A DNA stretch of 62,077 nucleotides from Verrucomicrobiota bacterium. Lineage in GTDB: Bacteria; Verrucomicrobiota; Verrucomicrobiia; Chthoniobacterales; JAFAMB01. Location of the stretch: NCBI GenBank assembly GCA_019247695.1, contig JAFBAP010000115.1:1-62077 (forward strand), written 5' to 3'. The position numbers and the translations under genes were made by a program. Positions 1 to 58,235 of this stretch are shown here, in pieces; the first letter of the stretch is position 1, and each line of letters begins with the position of its first letter. The notes under the pieces are model-generated. The model made no database searches and was not told where the DNA came from. It saw only the letters and a program-made list of their open reading frames with translations.

Positions 1-290
1 ACGCAGAAAAGAGAAAACCTCCACAGATTACACAGATTAAGGGGACGGCCCGCGGCGGATATAGCGTCTCTCTTACCCGGCACTCGACACCCGACACTCG
101 GCACCCGATGTCATTTGTGGCATTCTTTGCCGCTCCGAACCCCGAACCCGACCTCCTAACTCTTTCCCCCTCTCCCCGCCGTGTTCGCCGTGGCTCGCCG
201 TGTTCGCCGTGTGAACTCAGTCGTTGTGCCCGCCACACCCGCTGTGCCCGCCGTGTGACCGCGGGCGTGAAGAGCGGTTACTCATACATC
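1..290. repeat. Composite intergenic repeat block R1 (entered from the window edge)
   Basis: There is no convincing gene in the first 350 bases. Positions 1-41 carry the ACGCAGAAAAGAG and CACAGATTACACAGATTAAG modules. Positions 61-124 carry an AGCGTCTCTCTTACCC segment, the CACTCGACACCCGACACTCG module and CATTTGTGGCATT. About 130-165 has CTCCGAACCCCGAACCCG, and 176-262 has the CCGTGTTCGCCGTGGCTCG and TTGTGCCCGCC modules. The same modules recur in other intergenic blocks of this window, often in the opposite orientation. The left part of the element probably lies outside the window. Confidence 0.75.
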
Positions 291-4958: not shown

Positions 4959-5267
4959 ATGAAATCACTTTTTCTCGCCCTGTTTTTATCCGTGATGGCT
5001 CTGAGCAGCGGCGCTCTTGCCCAGCAGATCCAGGAATTCCGGACCACCCCGCGGGTGGTGCCGCAACCTGAACCGCCGCGTGCTGCGATTGAGCAGAATT
5101 CAAACTCTGACATCGCACGGAAGTTTATCGCGGCGCCGAACAAGCTGCAGCTGCTTAACCCGCTGGCTCCGCGCCGGTATGGAAGCGGCGAACAAGTCGT
5201 TGCGGCTGACCGGCGCGATCGACAGGAGCGGGGCCGCTTCTGGCGGTTGATCTCGTTTCCGTTTTAG
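4959..5267 (+). CDS. Small secreted protein of unknown function
   Basis: A 102-residue protein with a textbook signal peptide: MKSLFLALFLSVMALSSGALAQQ, with cleavage expected after ALA-Q. The mature peptide of about 80 residues is rich in Pro, Gln and Arg (TTPRVVPQPEPPRAAI) and ends in WRLISFPF. An AGGGG ribosome binding site precedes the ATG. A strong intrinsic terminator follows the stop by about 27 bases, so this is a single-gene unit or the end of one. I recognise no family; small exported proteins with the C-terminal pattern of an Arg-rich stretch, WR and Phe/Pro are only a loose grouping. Confidence 0.7.
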   Translation: MKSLFLALFLSVMALSSGALAQQIQEFRTTPRVVPQPEPPRAAIEQNSNSDIARKFIAAPNKLQLLNPLAPRRYGSGEQVVAADRRDRQERGRFWRLISFPF

Positions 5268-5294
5268 GGCGCCTTTGCAGGCGGGTTCGTGAGA

Positions 5295-5328
5295 GGCTGG
5301 GGCAGCGAGCCCCGGCCTTTTTGTTTTT
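5295..5328 (+). terminator. Intrinsic terminator after the small secreted protein
   Basis: GGCTGGGGC (5295-5303) pairs with GCCCCGGCC (5309-5317) around the loop AGCGA; the only imperfect pair is T-G. It is followed at once by TTTTTGTTTTT. This is one of the clearest rho-independent terminators in the window. The next open reading frame begins immediately after it at 5329. Confidence 0.9.
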
Positions 5329-6549
5329 GTGACGGATCAACCTCTATCTTCGACCAGCCTGGGCGGCGACCTTAAGGCCGGCCCAGCATCTCCCCTCACC
5401 CGGCGACCGGTCATCGCCGTGTTCTGCCCGACCTTTTTGCGTCCGGAAATGCTGCACGTGTACCGGCAGATTGCCTGCCTTGAACGCACGCAGCCCATCG
5501 TCTTCGCTTTCAAACGCGAGTGCGCCAGCCGGTTTCCGTACGAACGGTGCGAAATCCTTCCGCGTTCGGCGTTCCGCTGGTGGCGAAGGATCTGGCAAAA
5601 ACAGGTTCTCAGGATTCCGCAAACGGCTTTCCCGGGCGAAGTGGCCGCCTTCCGGCGGCGACTCCGGAATCACGGCTGCAGAATGCTCCATATTTATTTC
5701 GGTAATAACGCGATCTTTTGGGAACCACTGATCCGGCGAATCGAGCTTCCGGTTGTAGTCTCATTCCACGGCGCCGATACCCAGGTCGATATGCGGTCCC
5801 CGGCGGCTCTTGGCCGGCTCCGGCGGGTGTTCGGCGGTGCACGGCTGGTTTTAGCCCGGTCTGAGTCCCTCGTCCAAGCGCTCATCGAACTGGGGTGTCC
5901 CCCTGAAAAGCTTCGACTCCAGCGAACCGGCATTCCTTTGGAGTTTTATCCGTTCCAAGCGCGGCCGGCACCGCCGGATGGGCGCTGGCACCTGTTGCAG
6001 GCTTGCAGGTTGATAGAAAAAAAGGGACTCGAGACCACGCTGCAAGCGTTCGCGAAGTTTCGGGACGCATGGCCGCAGGCGTTTCTGACGGTGGCCGGCG
6101 ATGGCGAACTGCGGCCGGCGCTCGTCGAATTGGCGGCCCGCCTCGGGGTGACGAAGTCCGTCCGGTTCACCGGCTTTTTGGCGCCTGACGAACTGCGCCG
6201 GCTCTATTACGATGCGCATCTCTTCGTGCACCCAAGCGAGACGGCTCGAGACGGCAACCAGGAAGGCGTGCCAAACAGTTTACTGGAGGCTATGGCGACC
6301 GGTTTGCCCGCCGTTGCTACCCGTCACGGTGGCATCCCCGAGGCGATTGAACATCGGGTAAACGGTTTTCTGACGGATGAGCGGTCACCGGGGCAAGTGG
6401 CGGAGGGCCTTCTTGAGATTACTCGCGACGACGCGTTCCGTGCCGCCCTGGGGCAAGCCGCGGCCGAGGCCGTTCGCCGGAAATTTGATCTCAAGGTGCA
6501 GGCGGCGCGCCTGGAAGGGGCTTACCTGAGCCTGATCCAAGAGGGGTGA
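5329..6549 (+). CDS. Glycosyltransferase family 4 (GT-B fold)
   Basis: A 406-residue retaining glycosyltransferase that transfers a sugar from a nucleotide or lipid donor to a glycan or lipid acceptor, probably at the inner membrane. The N-terminal Rossmann half starts PVIAVFCPTFLRPEM and includes FHGADTQ. The donor half has CRLIEKKGLETTLQAF, LTVAGDGELRPAL and the GT4 E-x7-E signature in EGVPNSLLEAMATGLP, then VNGFLT. The GTG start at 5329 is the only upstream candidate in frame, but it directly abuts the preceding terminator and has no ribosome binding site, so the true start is doubtful; conserved sequence begins near residue 27. No polysaccharide cluster surrounds it. A repeat motif begins right at the stop codon. 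Confidence 0.85.
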   Translation: MTDQPLSSTSLGGDLKAGPASPLTRRPVIAVFCPTFLRPEMLHVYRQIACLERTQPIVFAFKRECASRFPYERCEILPRSAFRWWRRIWQKQVLRIPQTAFPGEVAAFRRRLRNHGCRMLHIYFGNNAIFWEPLIRRIELPVVVSFHGADTQVDMRSPAALGRLRRVFGGARLVLARSESLVQALIELGCPPEKLRLQRTGIPLEFYPFQARPAPPDGRWHLLQACRLIEKKGLETTLQAFAKFRDAWPQAFLTVAGDGELRPALVELAARLGVTKSVRFTGFLAPDELRRLYYDAHLFVHPSETARDGNQEGVPNSLLEAMATGLPAVATRHGGIPEAIEHRVNGFLTDERSPGQVAEGLLEITRDDAFRAALGQAAAEAVRRKFDLKVQAARLEGAYLSLIQEG

Positions 6550-15317: not shown

Positions 15318-15914
15318 CTACTTCCAGTAGTGCTGCAGGACGACGCTCGCGAGAAGCAGGACAAAGGTCCCGACCGTCCACATTTGCTGCGTGCGCATCT
15401 TGTCGATCAGATCAGCTCGCACGTCGGCAATCTGTTGCTGCAACTCGGCCCGCAAGTCCGCCGTTTGTTGCTGCAATTCGGCCCGCAAATCCCCCATTTG
15501 CTGCTGCAATTCGGCCCGCAAGTCCGCCATTTCTTGCTTCAATTCAGTTCGCAAGTCCGCCATTTGCTGCTGCAACTCGGCTCGCAAGTCCGCCATTTGC
15601 TGCTGCAATTCGGCCCGCAAGTCTGCCATTTCTTGCTTCAGTTCGGCCCGCAAGTCCGCCATTTGCTGCTTCAGCTCGGTTCGCAAATCCGCCATTTCTT
15701 GCTTCAATTCAGTTCGCAAGTCCGTCAGGGCCTTCTGCAGGTCGGATGCTCCCGCCGTCAGGCGCGCGTCAAGGTAGTCGCGGGTCACCGGACGCAGCTC
15801 GGCTTCGGCCAACTCGGTGGCGCGCACGATGGCGTCGGCCAACTTATGGCCATCGCCCTTACTCAAGGCCTCAACGACTAGGGCGTGCAGTTCATTAACG
15901 CCGGCGGTCTTCAT
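15318..15914 (-). CDS. Hendecad coiled-coil protein with a C-terminal membrane anchor
   Basis: A 198-residue protein. A globular N-terminal part of about 60 residues (MKTAGVNELHALVVEAL) is followed by nine near-identical 11-residue units of the form ADLRAELQQQM or ADLRTELKQEM plus a degenerate tenth. The C-terminal segment MWTVGTFVLLLASVVLQ is a transmembrane helix just before the end. This is a continuous hendecad (right-handed or straight) coiled coil ending in the membrane, reminiscent of CCDC90/DUF1640-type proteins. I prefer ATG at 15914 over a TTG at 15959. Function unknown; an oligomeric rod on the inner membrane is likely. Confidence 0.8.
   Translation of the reverse strand: MKTAGVNELHALVVEALSKGDGHKLADAIVRATELAEAELRPVTRDYLDARLTAGASDLQKALTDLRTELKQEMADLRTELKQQMADLRAELKQEMADLRAELQQQMADLRAELQQQMADLRTELKQEMADLRAELQQQMGDLRAELQQQTADLRAELQQQIADVRADLIDKMRTQQMWTVGTFVLLLASVVLQHYWK
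15429..15725. repeat. 33-bp tandem repeat inside the coiled-coil gene
   Basis: Nine copies of a 33-bp unit encode the 11-residue coiled-coil repeat. Copies alternate between two codon versions of the last four residues (KQEM and QQQM), which suggests repeat homogenisation by slippage or unequal crossover. The copy number may vary between strains. Confidence 0.9.
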
Positions 15915-15979
15915 GGCGGCTGGTTCAATTAAGATGACAGGAATGTGCGGGACTGCCAAGTGCGCTCTCGAAACTCAAG

Positions 15980-30679: not shown

Positions 30680-31088
30680 CCAAGTCACACCACGATCACA
30701 GCGGAGAAGACTCACACGGCGCCACGGCGGAACACGGCGACCACGGCGAAAAGAGAGGAACCATCCGCAGAACACGCAGAAGAACGCAGAAAAGAGGAAA
30801 CATCCACAGATTACACAGATTGACACAGATTAAGCGGACTTGGCGGCAGCTCCAAGGTTGACACTCGCGCCTAACCCCCATGTTGCCGCTCCGAACTCCG
30901 AACTCTTCCTCTTCCGCCGTGGTCGCCGTGGCTCGCCGTGTTCGCCGTGTGAACTCTTACGTCGTGCCCGCCCTCCTCGCTGCGGCCGCCGTGTGCCCTT
31001 AATCTGCGTAATCCGTGTAATCTGTGGATGTTTTCTCTTTTCTGCGTTCTCTGCGTGTTCTGCGGATGATTTCTGTCTTCCCGCCCGG
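30680..31088. repeat. Composite inverted-repeat block R5
   Basis: The 495 bases between hisF and the truncated ligase gene hold no gene. The left half runs CACACGGCGCCACGGCGG, then CATCCGCAGAACACGCAG, AACGCAGAAAAGAGG, and CATCCACAGATTACACAG with a GACACAGATTAAG tail. The right half runs CTCCGAACTCCGAACTC, CCGTGGTCGCCGTGGCTCG, then CTTAATCTGCGTAATCC, TGTAATCTGTGGATG, TTTCTGCGTTCTCTGCGTG and TTCTGCGGATGATTTC. The right half is thus the approximate reverse complement of the left, module by module, but in a partly shuffled order. Confidence 0.8.
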
Positions 31089-36462: not shown

Positions 36463-36785
36463 GGAACATCGAGTACCGGGTGGCGGGTGTCGAGCGAATG
36501 CCACAAATGGAAGAGAGTGTCGGGTAACGGGTAACGGGTGTCGCATGGAAGACCACAAGCCGAAGTTGTTCCCGGTAGAGAGTGCCGCGCGTCAGCCCAG
36601 GAATAACCGCCACGAATGAATTGGAGGCCTCGACGCCCCCCGCCCGTCCTTCCCGGCGGTATGGAATCAACGCCATGAGCACGAGCCGTCGAAGTCACCC
36701 CTCAGCGGCATTTACACCCGACACCCGCCATTCGTTACTCGCTACTCGTTACCCGTTACTCTCTTCCATTTGTGGCATTGTTCCG
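36463..36785. repeat. Inverted repeat block R6 in a divergent promoter region
   Basis: The 366 bases between the divergent oxidoreductase and YhaM-like genes contain AATGCCACAAATG (36497-36509), GAAGAGAGTGTCGGG and CGGGTAACGGGTGTCG on the left. On the right they contain GACACCCGCCATTCG, GTTACTCGCTACTCG, TTACCCGTTACTCTC and CATTTGTGGCATT (36767-36779). The two halves are approximate reverse complements, about 200 bases apart. Promoters for both genes must lie in or beside this element. Confidence 0.75.
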
Positions 36786-44635: not shown

Positions 44636-45181
44636 TCAGGCGGTGACCTTCTCGCGGTGGAGTTCCTCCGACAATTCCGTGATCCGGGCCTGAACCTTTT
44701 GCAGGAGGTAGACCAGGTGCTCGCGTTCAGATAACGCCAACGGTTCCAGAATTCGGGCAAGCCAGCGGAAATAGGCGGGACGAACGCGCTCGAGCAGGGC
44801 TTCCCCCTGTGACGTCAGCTTGACCCGGACGACGCGGCGATCTTCGGGATCGCTCAGCCGTTCAACCAAGGCGTCGCGCTCGAGTCCGTCGAGGAGCCCG
44901 GTAATCGTGGCCCGCGAAACGCCGGTGCATTCGGCAAGGTCGGCCGCTGCCGGAAAGCAATGGGCGCAATGCGCGACCATCATCATCAGATTAAACCGGC
45001 CCTGACGGCTTCCCATTTGGGCAAGGAAATCGGCGTCAAGGGTGAGGATTTCGTCCGCAATTTTTAACAGGTGCAGGAACGCGTAGCAGCTGGACGGGTC
45101 AAGCCCGGGGTAATGGTGGGCTGCGTCCTGTAGCACCTCATAACGCGGCACATGCCTGATGATGGGAACTTGGCCGGGCAT
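44636..45181 (-). CDS. MarR family regulator of the efflux operon
   Basis: A 181-residue winged-helix repressor. Helix-turn-helix: FPAAADLAECTGVSRATITGLLDGLERDALVERL, and the wing DPEDRRVVRVKLTSQGEALLERV, which is the DxRxxxxxLTxxG pattern of MarR proteins. An extra N-terminal segment of 40 residues (YEVLQDAAHHYPGLDPSSCYAF) may take part in dimerisation or ligand binding. The first gene of the unit marR-adaptor-adaptor-RND, so it most probably represses its own operon until a pump substrate binds. A perfect inverted repeat just upstream is the likely operator. Confidence 0.93.
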   Translation of the reverse strand: MPGQVPIIRHVPRYEVLQDAAHHYPGLDPSSCYAFLHLLKIADEILTLDADFLAQMGSRQGRFNLMMMVAHCAHCFPAAADLAECTGVSRATITGLLDGLERDALVERLSDPEDRRVVRVKLTSQGEALLERVRPAYFRWLARILEPLALSEREHLVYLLQKVQARITELSEELHREKVTA

Positions 45182-45241: not shown

Positions 45242-45612
45242 CACACGGCGAGTTGGGCGGGCACAACGACTGAGTTCACACGGCGACCACGGCGGACCAC
45301 GGCGGACCACGGCGACCACGGCGGGAAGAGGGAGAAGGGGAAAGGGTTCGGAGTTCGGAGCGGCAGCATGGGCGGTGTCAAGTCCAGCGTTTGGGATTCT
45401 TTTTTCTGCGTGCTTCTGCGTGTTCTGCGGATGATTCTGCTTTCCGCTGGGTGCGCCTGACCCTCGGGGGAAGTCGCACCTGGTCCTACGACGCCTCCGA
45501 ACTCCGAACCCTTTCCCCTTCTCCCTCTTCCCGCCGTGGTCGCCGTGGCTCTCCGTGGTCGCCGTGTGAACTCAGTCGTTGTGCCCGCCCAACCCGCCGT
45601 GCCCGCCGTGTG
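45242..45612. repeat. Large inverted repeat block R7 between the efflux operon and mnmG
   Basis: Left arm 45242-45360, right arm 45495-45612. The arms are reverse complements over about 118 bases. They include one perfectly matched stretch of 54 bases (the CACGGCG part through to TTCGGAGTTCGGAG) and one of 41 (the part with GGGCACAACGACTGAG). They differ by a 10-11-base insertion or loss in each arm. The 134-base centre holds CTGCGTGTTCTGCGGATGAT and CTCGGGGGAAG, also seen near R5. The right arm ends 3 bases from the mnmG stop codon. No gene occupies the 434-base gap. Confidence 0.85.
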
Positions 45613-45615
45613 ACG

Positions 45616-47490
45616 CTAGCCGCCGCTTTTTTCGAGGTAGACTGCCAGGAGGGCCATGTCGGCAGGCGTGATTCCGCTGACCCTGGCGGCCTGCCCGAAC
45701 GTACCGGGCCGCACGGCGGTAAGTTTCTGACGGGCTTCAGCCCGAAGTCCGCGAACGGATCCGTAGTCGACCCAAGCCGGGATCGCGCGACCTTCGTTCT
45801 TTTCGGAACGCGCAATGGAATCCGTCTGGCGCTTTATATAACCGGCGTACTTCAGGTCGGTCTCGACCTGGAGCCAAGCCTCGCGGCCAAACCGTTTGAG
45901 GAGGTCGTCGGGAACGGCGTCAACGTCAAAATCGGGCCGTTTCAGCAACTGGTCCAGCCGGTGCTCGCCGATGCGGGTTTTCCGGGCCAGTTCCTGGGCT
46001 TCTTCGACGGCGGCGAGCTTGCGCCGGACCGCTTCGTAGCGGGCGGCCGGGACGAGCCCGGCTTCCCAGGCGCGCGGGGTCAGCCGCAGGTCGGCGTTGT
46101 CCTGCCGCAGCAGCAAGCGATACTCGGCCCGGCTGGTGAACATGCGGTACGGTTCCTGGGTTCCTTTCGCGGTGAGGTCATCGACCAGGACACCGATGTA
46201 CGCGTCGGACCGCCGCAGGGTGAATGGGGATCTACCCTGGACCTTGAGGGCCGCATTAATCCCGGCGATCAGGCCTTGGGCAGCGGCTTCCTCGTAGCCG
46301 GAGGTGCCGTTGATCTGGCCGGCAAAATAAAGGCCGGGCACCAGTTTGGTCTCCAGCGTGAGCTGCACCTGCGTCGGAGGGCAGTAATCGTACTCAACGG
46401 CGTATCCCGGCCGGATAATCTCGGCCTCTTCAAGCCCGGCAATCGTCCGGAGGAACGCGTGCTGGACCGGGAACGGCAGGCTGGTGGAAAGCCCGTTAAC
46501 GTAGTATTCGTGGGTGTGGCGCCCTTCGGGTTCGAGGAACAGCTGGTGCTGCGTTTTGTCGGCAAAACGTACCACCTTGTCTTCGATCGACGGGCAGTAT
46601 CGGGGGCCGACGCCTTGGATTTTGCCTGAATACATCGGCGACTGGTGAAGGTTCGCGCGGATCAGGTCGTGCGTGGCCGGCCGAGTGTACGTGATCCAGC
46701 ACGGCAATTGTTCCACATGGAACATTCCGGCCCGGCGCCAGTTCAGGGTGAAAAGCTCGTCCACCTCGTTTCCCACTTCGTCCAGGAACGAGAACGGCGG
46801 CGGCGGCAGGTCGCCATCCTGGCGTTCGCAGCGGCTGAAATCGATTGAGCGGGCGTTCAGCCGGCAAGGGGTACCGGTCTTGAACCGGCCAAGCTCGAAC
46901 CCCAGGGCGCGTAAAGCATCACTCAGCGTCGACGGCGCATCCCCCATCCTGCCGCCGGCCTGATTTTGCATACCGACGTGGAGAAGGCCCCGCATGAAAG
47001 TACCCGTAGTTACCACGACTGCGCGGGCCCGGAACTCCACCGCCAGGTTGGTGCGCACCCCGGCGGCCTGGCCGTCCTCGACCAGGATCTCGCTCGCGTT
47101 TGCTTGGTACAGGTCGAGCCCGGGCTGCCGCTCGGCCAGCGCTTTCATCCGGAACTGATAAGCTTTTTTGTCGCACTGTGCCCGCGGCGCGCGGACGCTC
47201 GGCCCTTTGTTGGAGTTCAACATCCGGAACTGGATCCCGGTCGCATCCGTGTTCTCCCCCATCCAGCCGCCCAGGGCATCGATTTCCCTGACCATGTGCC
47301 CTTTGGCCAGGCCGCCAATGGCCGGGTTGCACGACATCTGGCCGATGGTGTCCAGGTTCTGCGTGAGCATCAGCGTCCGGCATTCGAGCCGGGCCGCCGC
47401 TGCCGCCGCTTCCAGCCCGGCATGGCCGGCACCGATGATGATGACGTCGTACGATTTCGGAAACCTAAACACGCGTTGAACATGCCCCAT
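45616..47490 (-). CDS. mnmG: tRNA uridine 5-carboxymethylaminomethyl modification enzyme MnmG (GidA)
   Basis: A 624-residue FAD/NADH enzyme that, with MnmE, installs the cmnm5 group on the wobble uridine of some tRNAs. The FAD-binding motif is [16 protein letters not shown], followed by [25 protein letters not shown], both signature stretches of the family, and [12 protein letters not shown]. The C-terminal MnmE- and tRNA-binding part has [21 protein letters not shown] and GRVSG-like [19 protein letters not shown] near-parS palindrome lies within the gene where it encodes MFHVEQ. The gene is bracketed by repeat blocks R7 and R8. No rsmG (gidB) follows. Confidence 0.97.
46709..46724. promoter_or_regulatory. 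parS-like ParB binding site inside mnmG
   Basis: TGTTCCACATGGAACA is a palindrome differing from TGTTCCACGTGGAACA only by G-to-A at the centre. It lies in the mnmG reading frame at the MFHVEQ codons. Chromosomal parS sites are widely conserved in bacteria and are often found in or near gidA. The A at the centre may weaken binding. Confidence 0.55.
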
Positions 47491-47512: not shown

Positions 47513-47905
47513 TCACACGGCGGGCACGGCGACTGAGTTCACACTGCGACCACGGCGAACCACGGCGACCACGGCGGGAAGAGGAAGGGTCCGGAGGTCG
47601 GGGTTCGGAGCTCGGGGTTTGGGGTTCGGAGGCGTCGTATACCTGGGTCCGCCTTTCCGTGGAACACGCCGGCGGAGGAGAGAGCGATCCACCAACCCGG
47701 GTCTTGACGTCGGCAGCTTGCCCCCAAGGCTGCCGCTCCGAACTCCGAACCCCGACCTCCGAACCCTCTCCTCTTCCCGCCGTGTTCGCCGTGGTTCGCC
47801 GTGGTCGCCGTGTGAACTCAGTCGCCGTGCCCGCCAAGTCGCTGTGCCCGTGGTGTGACCGCGTGAACTCCGTCGTTGTGCCCGCCCCGTGCCGCCGTGC
47901 CCGCC
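47513..47905. repeat. Large inverted repeat block R8 upstream of mnmG
   Basis: Left arm about 47513-47612 begins 22 bases before the mnmG start codon (which lies at 47490, minus strand). Right arm about 47736-47820 with extra TGCCCGCC modules to 47905. Arms are approximate reverse complements over about 75-85 bases, from the TCACACGGCG module through CACGGCGGGAAGAGG to the GGTCGGGGTTCGGAG module. The centre of about 120 bases is unlike any other block. No gene is found in the 713 bases between mnmG and the E1-alpha gene except this block, a parS site and about 250 bases without recognised features before pdhA. Confidence 0.8.
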
Positions 47906-51702: not shown

Positions 51703-53082
51703 ATGAAATACGATCTGATTGTGGTCGGCGGCGGACCCGCCGGTTATGTCGGCGCGATCCGCGCGGCGCAACTGGGAAAGAAGGTCGCCTGTGTTGAAAA
51801 AGAACGCGCGGGAGGCACCTGCCTCAATTGGGGATGTATCCCGACCAAGTCGTTACTGCGAAACGCCGAGATTTACCACGTCCTCCGGCACCGGGCAGGG
51901 GATTACGGCTTCAAATTCGACAACCTGTCCTTCGACTGGCAGAAGGTGATCGGACGAAGCCGGGGCGTAGCCGACAAACTGGCAGGGGGAGTCGAGTTCC
52001 TGTTTAAAAAGAACAAGATCGATTATCTGCGGGGTGAAGCGGTTGTCGATGGCCCGGGCAAGGTCAGCTACCGCGGTGCCGACGGCAAGGCCCAGAACAT
52101 CGAAGGCCAAGCCATCCTGATCGCCACCGGGGCGGTTGCGCGTGAGCTGCCGGGGTTGGCCGTGGATGGAAAAACCGTGGTGACCAGCCACGATGCGATG
52201 ATCCTGGATCCGCGTCCGGAACGAATGATCATCATCGGGGCAGGGGCGATCGGCGTTGAGTTTGCCTACTTCTACAATGCTTACGGCACCGACGTAACGC
52301 TGGTGGAAATGCTGCCGAACGTTCTCCCTGTGGAGGACGAAGAGATCAGCAAGACGCTTGAAAAGGCGCTGACCAAACAGGGCATCAAGATTTTCACCAA
52401 TACCAAGGTTACCAAAACTGAGAGCGACGGAAAACGCGTGAGAATCGGCATCGAAGGTGCCAAGGCTCAGACGCTGGAAGCCGACTGCACCATCGTCGCC
52501 ATCGGGGTGATTCCGCTGGTTCCGAAGATGCCGGAACAGATCAATCGCGATAAACGGGGCTACATTCAGGTGGACGACCGTTATCAGACCACCGTTCCCG
52601 GCATCTACGCCGCGGGCGACGTCATCGGGCCGCCTTGGCTGGCCCACGTGGCCAGCTGGGAAGCGATCCAGGCGGTTGAGGGCCTGTTCACCGACCATCG
52701 CCCGAAGAAAGTTACGCTCTTCCCGGGCTGCACGTATTGCCAGCCCCAGGTGGCCAGTGCCGGTCTGACGGAGCGAGCCGCCAAGGATAAAGGGCTCAAA
52801 TACAGGATCGGCAAGTTCCCGTTCTCGGCGAGCGGGAAGGCGCTGGCGGTTGGTGAATCGGAAGGGTACGTCAAGCTGATCATCGGCGAACCGCACGGCG
52901 AGATCCTGGGGGCGCACATCATCGGCCCGGAGGCGACCGAATTGATCGCGGAGTTAACCCTGGCGATGTCGTTGGAGGCAACTTACGAGGAAATCGAGGC
53001 CACCATCCACGCGCACCCGACGCTAAGCGAAGCCGTCCATGAAGCAACCGGCGCAGCGTTCAACCTGGCGATCCACATTTGA
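51703..53082 (+). CDS. lpdA: Dihydrolipoamide dehydrogenase (E3)
   Basis: A 459-residue flavoprotein reoxidising dihydrolipoyl-E2 with NAD+. FAD fold MKYDLIVVGGGPAGYVGAIRAA; the redox-active disulfide Cys40 and Cys45 in GGTCLNWGCIPTK; NAD fold MIIIGAGAIGVEFAYFYNAYG; the dimer-interface His-Glu pair in HAHPTLSEAVHEA (His438, Glu443). Last gene of the PDH operon, so the complex has its own E3. A repeat block starts 2-3 bases after the stop. Confidence 0.96.
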   Translation: MKYDLIVVGGGPAGYVGAIRAAQLGKKVACVEKERAGGTCLNWGCIPTKSLLRNAEIYHVLRHRAGDYGFKFDNLSFDWQKVIGRSRGVADKLAGGVEFLFKKNKIDYLRGEAVVDGPGKVSYRGADGKAQNIEGQAILIATGAVARELPGLAVDGKTVVTSHDAMILDPRPERMIIIGAGAIGVEFAYFYNAYGTDVTLVEMLPNVLPVEDEEISKTLEKALTKQGIKIFTNTKVTKTESDGKRVRIGIEGAKAQTLEADCTIVAIGVIPLVPKMPEQINRDKRGYIQVDDRYQTTVPGIYAAGDVIGPPWLAHVASWEAIQAVEGLFTDHRPKKVTLFPGCTYCQPQVASAGLTERAAKDKGLKYRIGKFPFSASGKALAVGESEGYVKLIIGEPHGEILGAHIIGPEATELIAELTLAMSLEATYEEIEATIHAHPTLSEAVHEATGAAFNLAIHI

Positions 53083-53084
53083 GT

Positions 53085-53336
53085 GACGCGAAACGGGTAG
53101 CGGGTAACTCGTAACTGGTGCCGGCAAGGCATTGAGCGCCGAGTAACCCGCAGCGTGTTCCGGATGGGAGAGGGGACCCCTGAGTAACGCGTGGCGGGTA
53201 ACTGGTGCGGGTGGGAGAGGGAACTCCGATCGGATCAAGCGTTCACCTGCACGCCGGCGTCAGATCGTTTCCCGGCACCAGCAACCAGTAACCCGTTACG
53301 AATTACCCGTTACCAGTACCGGGTTACTCACATCCT
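53085..53336. repeat. Inverted repeat block R9 of CGGGTAAC-type modules
   Basis: It starts right after the lpdA stop. The left part has AAACGGGTAGCGGGTAACTC and TAACTGGTGCCGG; a middle copy has TGGCGGGTAACTGGTGCGGG. The right part has CGGCACCAGCAACCAG, TAACCCGTTACGAATTACCC and GTTACCAGTACCGGGTTACTC. Left and right are approximate reverse complements, so the block could fold into a long hairpin. It is the same family as R6, without the CATTTGTGGCA motif. Confidence 0.75.
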
Positions 53337-57902: not shown

Positions 57903-58235
57903 GTTCGGTCACACGGCGGCCGCAGCGATTTGGCGGGCACAACGACAGAGTTCACACGGCGAACACGGCGGACCACGGCGGGAAAAAATGCCGCAAATGG
58001 GGGCTGCCGGTTAGGGACGTCGGGAACCTACGCCGTCTTTGCCCCGGAGCGGCGGTTGGTAGTAGCCTGGAACTTTGGTGCCGGATATTCTCGCCGCCGC
58101 TCCGGGGCAAAGACGGCGTAATCCTTGCCGAGGTGGCGGGTAATCTTCTTCCGCCGTGTTCGCCGTGGCCCGCCGTGTTCGCCGTGTGAACTTGTCGTTG
58201 TGCCCGCCGAACCCGTTGTGGCCGCCGTGTGACGG
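57903..58235. repeat. Nested inverted repeat block R10 upstream of argH
   Basis: The outer arms (about 57908-57985 and 58150-58233) are approximate reverse complements: TCACACGGCGGCC, GGGCACAACGAC, GTTCACACGGCGAACACGG on the left and their complements on the right. Inside is the perfect 27-base hairpin arm pair described separately, and a variant AATGCCGCAAATG (57987-57999). The block starts right after the stop of the preceding gene and runs to about 24 bases before argH. No gene lies in the 358-base gap. Confidence 0.85.
58029..58120. repeat. Perfect 27-bp inverted repeat at the core of R10
   Basis: The arm 58029-58055 (starts TACGCCGTCTTTGCCC) is exactly complementary to 58094-58120. The 38-base spacer contains GTAGTAGCCTGGAACTTTGG. 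A single-stranded copy would form an extremely stable hairpin. It shares no module with the other blocks, so it may be a separate insert within R10. Confidence 0.95.

Follow-up and report, generated by a model that had tools for sequence, protein, structure and literature searches.

A long nested palindrome beside mnmG is one copy of an interspersed, lineage-specific repeat in a genus of Verrucomicrobiota

Introduction

Several families of palindromic sequences are known to spread through genomes. REP sequences measure 20–40 bp and occur as GTAG- and CGTC-tagged types, of which the GTAG type abounds in the verrucomicrobium Opitutus terrae (PMC3733652). REPINs are also found inserted in or beside other REPINs (PMC3116915). 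Among the GC clusters of yeast organelles, palindromes merge and shuffle at one position (PMC4478555). Template switching is known to homogenise the arms of quasipalindromes and to invert their spacers (PMC8604942).

Here we describe a palindromic element found in a window of 62,077 nt (the whole stretch of DNA analysed, from a draft Verrucomicrobiota genome). The element resembles REPs and REPINs in being high-copy, extragenic, hairpin-forming, lineage-specific, close to coding regions and made of paired palindromes. It differs from them by its length of 300–550 nt and its several nested layers, and by the lack of a visible GTAG or CGTC tag and of a RAYT gene flanked by the element. With MITEs it shares terminal inverted repeats, the absence of coding capacity, and presence or absence at orthologous sites; however, its inverted repeats cover most of its length and vary in their layers, no target-site duplication was recognised by eye, and no parent transposon was found in a search for Y1 transposases. 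The organellar palindromes of yeast (PMC4478555) and Volvox (PMC2670323) have likewise spread through intergenic DNA, whereas the present element resides in a bacterial chromosome, is much longer and keeps its layers in a fixed order. As in template-switched quasipalindromes (PMC8604942), arms are homogenised and the spacer occurs in both orientations, but the arms exceed 100 nt and belong to a repeat family, and the events are deduced from sequences. No description of this family was found in the literature searched. With it, a bacterium provides a natural series of palindromes that are both long and nested.

Results

An inverted repeat abuts the 3′ end of mnmG

The locus lies between mnmG (nearest named relatives of the protein about 67% identical) and a gene for a MarR-family regulator (Table 1). 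The marR-mnmG order is conserved among relatives. The spacer measures 434 bp here and about 830 bp in a second genome of the same genus, G001. It measures about 120–230 bp and lacks the element in G003, G005 and G010, which belong to the same family but to other genera (adjacency of the two genes in G003 was judged from a partial marR match).

Table 1. Positions, in the window, of the mnmG-site copy, its neighbouring genes and the other copies of the element
Feature	Position	Strand	Remarks
MarR-family regulator gene	44636–45181	−	downstream of the element
Left arm	45244–45360		117 nt; D 45256–45268, E 45272–45283, F units to ~45325, H heptads 45347–45360
Extra 10-nt tandem unit GACCACGGCG	45295–45304		exact placement within the tandem arbitrary
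Asymmetric centre	45361–45494	+	134 nt; orientation I-k-j; both orientations in other copies
Right arm	45495–45601		107 nt; layers h, f, e, d in mirror order
Outer terminus CCGCCGTGTGACG (layer c)	45602–45615		directly at the mnmG stop codon
mnmG/gidA	45616–47490	−	Pfam GIDA; element abuts its 3′ end
Second copy	47514–47886		on the other side of mnmG
Copy with alternative N/n hairpin core	57907–58234		
Copy with unlike arms	30712–31085		older arm type on the left; centre motif in common with the mnmG-site copy
Right half of a copy	85–260		truncated at the contig end

When one arm was globally aligned with the reverse complement of the other, 104 positions were identical and 2 mismatched, with 12 gap columns. 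The perfect runs of 54 and 41 nt reported by the sequence-only reading were recovered, as was the 134-nt centre. That reading had also described an insertion or loss of 10–11 bases in each arm; the alignment shows instead a net 10-nt unit of a (G)ACCACGGCG tandem, in the left arm only, the length difference coming with a 1-nt offset. A chance origin of these arms is excluded, because ten Markov-shuffled windows yielded no inverted repeat above 30 bits nearby, and because the RNA fold of the segment, which had been proposed as a check, is very stable (−290.7 kcal/mol, z = −20.6 relative to dinucleotide shuffles). No gene was called inside the copy, and a tRNA scan of the window gave no match. 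Motifs of the centre had been said to recur in another repeat (R5); the motif TTCTGCGTG..TTCTGCGGATGATT was indeed present in the repeat at about 30.7–31.1 kb, which is probably the one meant.

The element is a high-copy repeat restricted to one lineage

The inverted repeat at the mnmG site belongs to a lineage-specific repeat of this Verrucomicrobiota genus, of which it is a single copy. The segment matched 131 pieces of the genome it comes from; a degenerate arm pattern gave 252 exact hits in the 5.2 Mb, and the centre motif was counted 90 times. In a sample of 285 other genomes of the class, all from outside the host family, neither the arm pattern nor the centre motif found a match. Among 57 relatives, the element was present beyond traces only in G001. 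With the arm pattern fitting 40 of 54 sampled arms, approximately 340 arms, hence 170 copies, are expected genome-wide; the density in the window (five copies in 62 kb) suggests more, all of these numbers being based on patterns and on a 346-kb sample of the genome enriched for strong copies.

Both genomes are drafts, ours in 191 contigs. Elements are often found at contig ends, and one such copy (L155) looks like a fold-back, which would fit arms made alike by the collapse of repeat reads or by fold-back assembly. The mnmG-site copy, however, lies in mid-contig with flanks syntenic in G001, its arms differ by the 10-nt unit and by substitutions, and the same family is found in a separately assembled genome. 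We consider an assembly artefact highly improbable.

Copies sit in gene gaps, most often just behind stop codons

With genes called by a simple codon-usage gene finder, copies were found in gene gaps, at 3′ ends, with a median distance of 8 nt to stop codons and of 63 nt to start codons; most are within about 30 nt of a stop codon. Element-bearing gaps are co-directional in 15 cases, convergent in 10 and divergent in 6, and a few elements overlap gene calls in this sample, which is enriched for strong copies. Because of the location behind stop codons, integron attC sites were considered; they were set aside by eye, as the neighbours include housekeeping genes in all orientations and no GTTRRRY core is apparent.

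A position directly behind stop codons, together with the very stable fold, would also suit a functional RNA hairpin (a stabiliser of the mnmG 3′ end, a terminator or a riboregulator) whose pairing is kept by selection on the transcript. In 12 copies from co-directional gaps, mismatches between arms read in the transcript orientation were G·U in 70 cases and A·C in 69. These equal numbers give no sign of an RNA kept paired, and structural selection on the arms is not supported. Moreover, the ortholog has decayed in G001 and is absent from the three genomes of the same family, some copies sit in divergent gaps, an Rfam scan of the whole window (at gathering scores) gave no match, and no U-run was seen by eye after the hairpin on the mnmG strand. 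Maintenance by RNA-level selection is therefore unlikely. If the element serves the cell at all, its most likely role would be that of a putative 3′-end hairpin of the mnmG transcript.

Copies are built of nested layers around an asymmetric core

The anatomy was derived by scanning the 346 kb of our genome with 13 short modules. From the outside inwards, the layers are an optional A (AATGCCACAAATG), B/Z (heptads GTAACGG and TGTCGGG), C (GGTCACACGGC), D (GGCGGGCACAACG), E (GAGTTCACACGG), a second C, which is a match inside E, F (units of ACCACGGCG), H (AGTTCGG heptads) and the core, after which the same layers return in mirror order. Examples of module strings, with runs collapsed, are ABZCDECFHJKihfcedc and ABCDECFNnfcedcza. 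Mirrored layer order was seen in dozens of copies and in 118 of 145 comparisons, a figure that describes this sample and is no independent test, since the modules were picked after viewing the sequences. The rest appear to be due mainly to outer layers that have been duplicated.

The usual core is an asymmetric segment of about 150 nt found in either orientation (I-k-j 12 times, J-K-i 7 times) and sometimes extended by a further segment; three copies have another hairpin, N/n, in its place. Termini, read by eye, are TCACACGG..CCGTGTGA.

Arrays of about 13–20 CTCCGAA heptads occupy one arm only at L144 (3073–3533), L140 (3070–3708) and L127 (22–474), and similar heptad arrays are also present at contig ends. 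A second arm type, CGCCGTGGCGCCGTGTGATTCTTCTCCGCTGTG, probably older, forms the left arms of L126, of L157:15810 and of the copy at window position 30712; it also occurs in G001 at L129:3.0k.

Arms of one copy share rare variants in a few copies

In the 27 complete copies, arm identity was 0.729 within copies and 0.672 between copies (permutation z = 5.2; the permutation tests treat copies without their phylogeny). The best match of the left arm was its own partner in only nine copies; for most, the best partner arm belongs to another copy, and a strong coupling between arms as a general rule was rejected. Counts of H heptads in the two arms were likewise uncorrelated (rho = −0.11, p = 0.6). 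Arms are alike mostly because all copies draw on one pool consensus.

Rare variants behaved differently in part of the sample. Over the 27 copies, 28.8% of them were common to both arms of the same copy, against 10.6 ± 3.2% after permutation. This sharing comes from about six copies, namely L131 (30 of 30 rare variants), L130 (34 of 38), L137 (24 of 31), L135 (10 of 14), the mnmG-site copy (14 of 26) and the 47.5-kb copy (12 of 32); in the remaining copies, none to few were common to the two arms. For the mnmG-site copy, sharing with arms of other copies was about 0.11. Confined as it is to few copies, rare-variant sharing indicates that arm correction is real but episodic. We infer that it results from episodic template switching or gene conversion between the arms of a copy.

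The proposal that arms were recently formed or corrected against each other is supported for the mnmG-site copy, whose G001 counterpart has decayed, and fails as a general rule. The two arms of this copy differ by 2 substitutions, although the flanking genes differ by about 15% from those of G001. Independent decay of the arms in a relative, which had been named as evidence against the proposal, was found in G001 at this very site, so correction looks episodic rather than constant. Alternatively, the high identity of the mnmG-site arms could mean that a whole copy was recently inserted anew at an old site.

Orthologous sites in G001 are decayed, reduced or empty

Eleven sites were compared with G001; the DNA identity of the flanking genes is about 85%. 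The G001 copy at the mnmG site has decayed to short arm remnants, which pair over 21 of 27 positions and have several hundred unrelated bases between them. These bases (L190, about 5000–5700; G001 C353) look like the remnant of a protein gene, possibly with some likeness to DUF2335.

Only a stub was found at three sites: it is GTCACACGGC at 47.5 kb, the place of the second copy; at L131 it is the 26-bp palindrome GGTCACACGGCGGCCGCGGCGTGACC, and at L135:3.1k it is GTCACACGGCGG. At four sites (L157:15.8k, L129:8.2k, window 57.9 kb and L135:0.9k), nothing but an A-type or A-like palindrome, complete or partial, is present. L157:18.7k is empty in G001, L129:3.0k has a half copy and L142 an altered one; L159 provided no usable orthologous element site. 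This mix of decay, stubs, absence and half or altered copies implies that copies are quickly gained, lost and rebuilt, and that positions recur. No flip of the core was seen at any one orthologous site among those compared, and no target-site duplication was recognised by eye at empty or stub sites, where flanks have diverged strongly from G001.

With no transposase tied to the element and no target-site duplication recognised, its mobility is deduced from copy number and from presence or absence only. Its high copy number, extragenic location and hairpin-forming capacity are those expected of a true REPIN moved in trans by a RAYT/Y1 transposase of the host, and the genome has two Y1 transposase genes. 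The element, however, flanks neither of them: a tnpB-like gene lies next to one, a tnpA, and around the other there is a different palindrome. No RAYT gene flanked by the element was found in the draft, where an assembly gap could hide one. In addition, the termini TCACACGG..CCGTGTGA carry no tag of the REP types, and the length is several-fold above that of a REP. A REPIN in the strict sense is, in our opinion, unlikely.

The two Y1 loci have features of their own. At L208, 3300–4600 (G000 C153), the Y1 gene lies amid other palindromic repeats (CCCAGGGT..ACCCTGGG and CCCTGAAGGGGCGGCAG), in a TIRYT-like arrangement unrelated to the mnmG-site element. At L207, 7248–8897 (G000 C19), there is an IS200/IS605-like pair, tnpA (Y1) and a tnpB-like gene split into two frames.

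Discussion

In the explanation that we consider likely, the inverted repeat is a copy of an interspersed palindromic element of the genus, non-autonomous, high in copy number and similar to REPINs and MITEs. Some process of mobilisation or copying would have spread the element, in part before the split between the two sampled species. Now and then, the arms of one copy would be copied onto each other, by template switching at replication or by gene conversion between inverted repeats, a process in which the spacer, too, can be inverted. The strong hairpin would then be a by-product of this history of spread and arm copying.

The nested layers may have arisen as palindromes entered other palindromes, or one arm may have grown first and then been copied to the other. 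The G001 sites where only the outer palindrome is present favour the entry of palindromes into palindromes, without proving it; the stubs could just as well be remnants of deletions. Tentatively, palindromes may grow from the inside: new palindromic repeats would enter the loop or centre of an older palindrome, every round would give both arms a matched layer, and template switching would then even out the arms. Such inside growth fits the sites where the relative shows just the outer AATGCCAC palindrome or a short stub. If it is true, the onion-like layers record the order of invasion. Orthologous sites in related species could reveal palindrome growth, arm correction and the tolerance of hundreds of long hairpins.

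Other repeats were noted in the window. Inverted repeats of TAACGGG/TGTCGGG heptads at 36480–36780 and 53077–53333 belong to other palindrome families of the same genome. A 33-nt tandem repeat at 15379–15774 lies in an ORF on the minus strand (15318–15959) and encodes a coiled-coil-like 11-residue repeat (ADLRAELQQQM) of a 213-aa protein whose C-terminus is hydrophobic.
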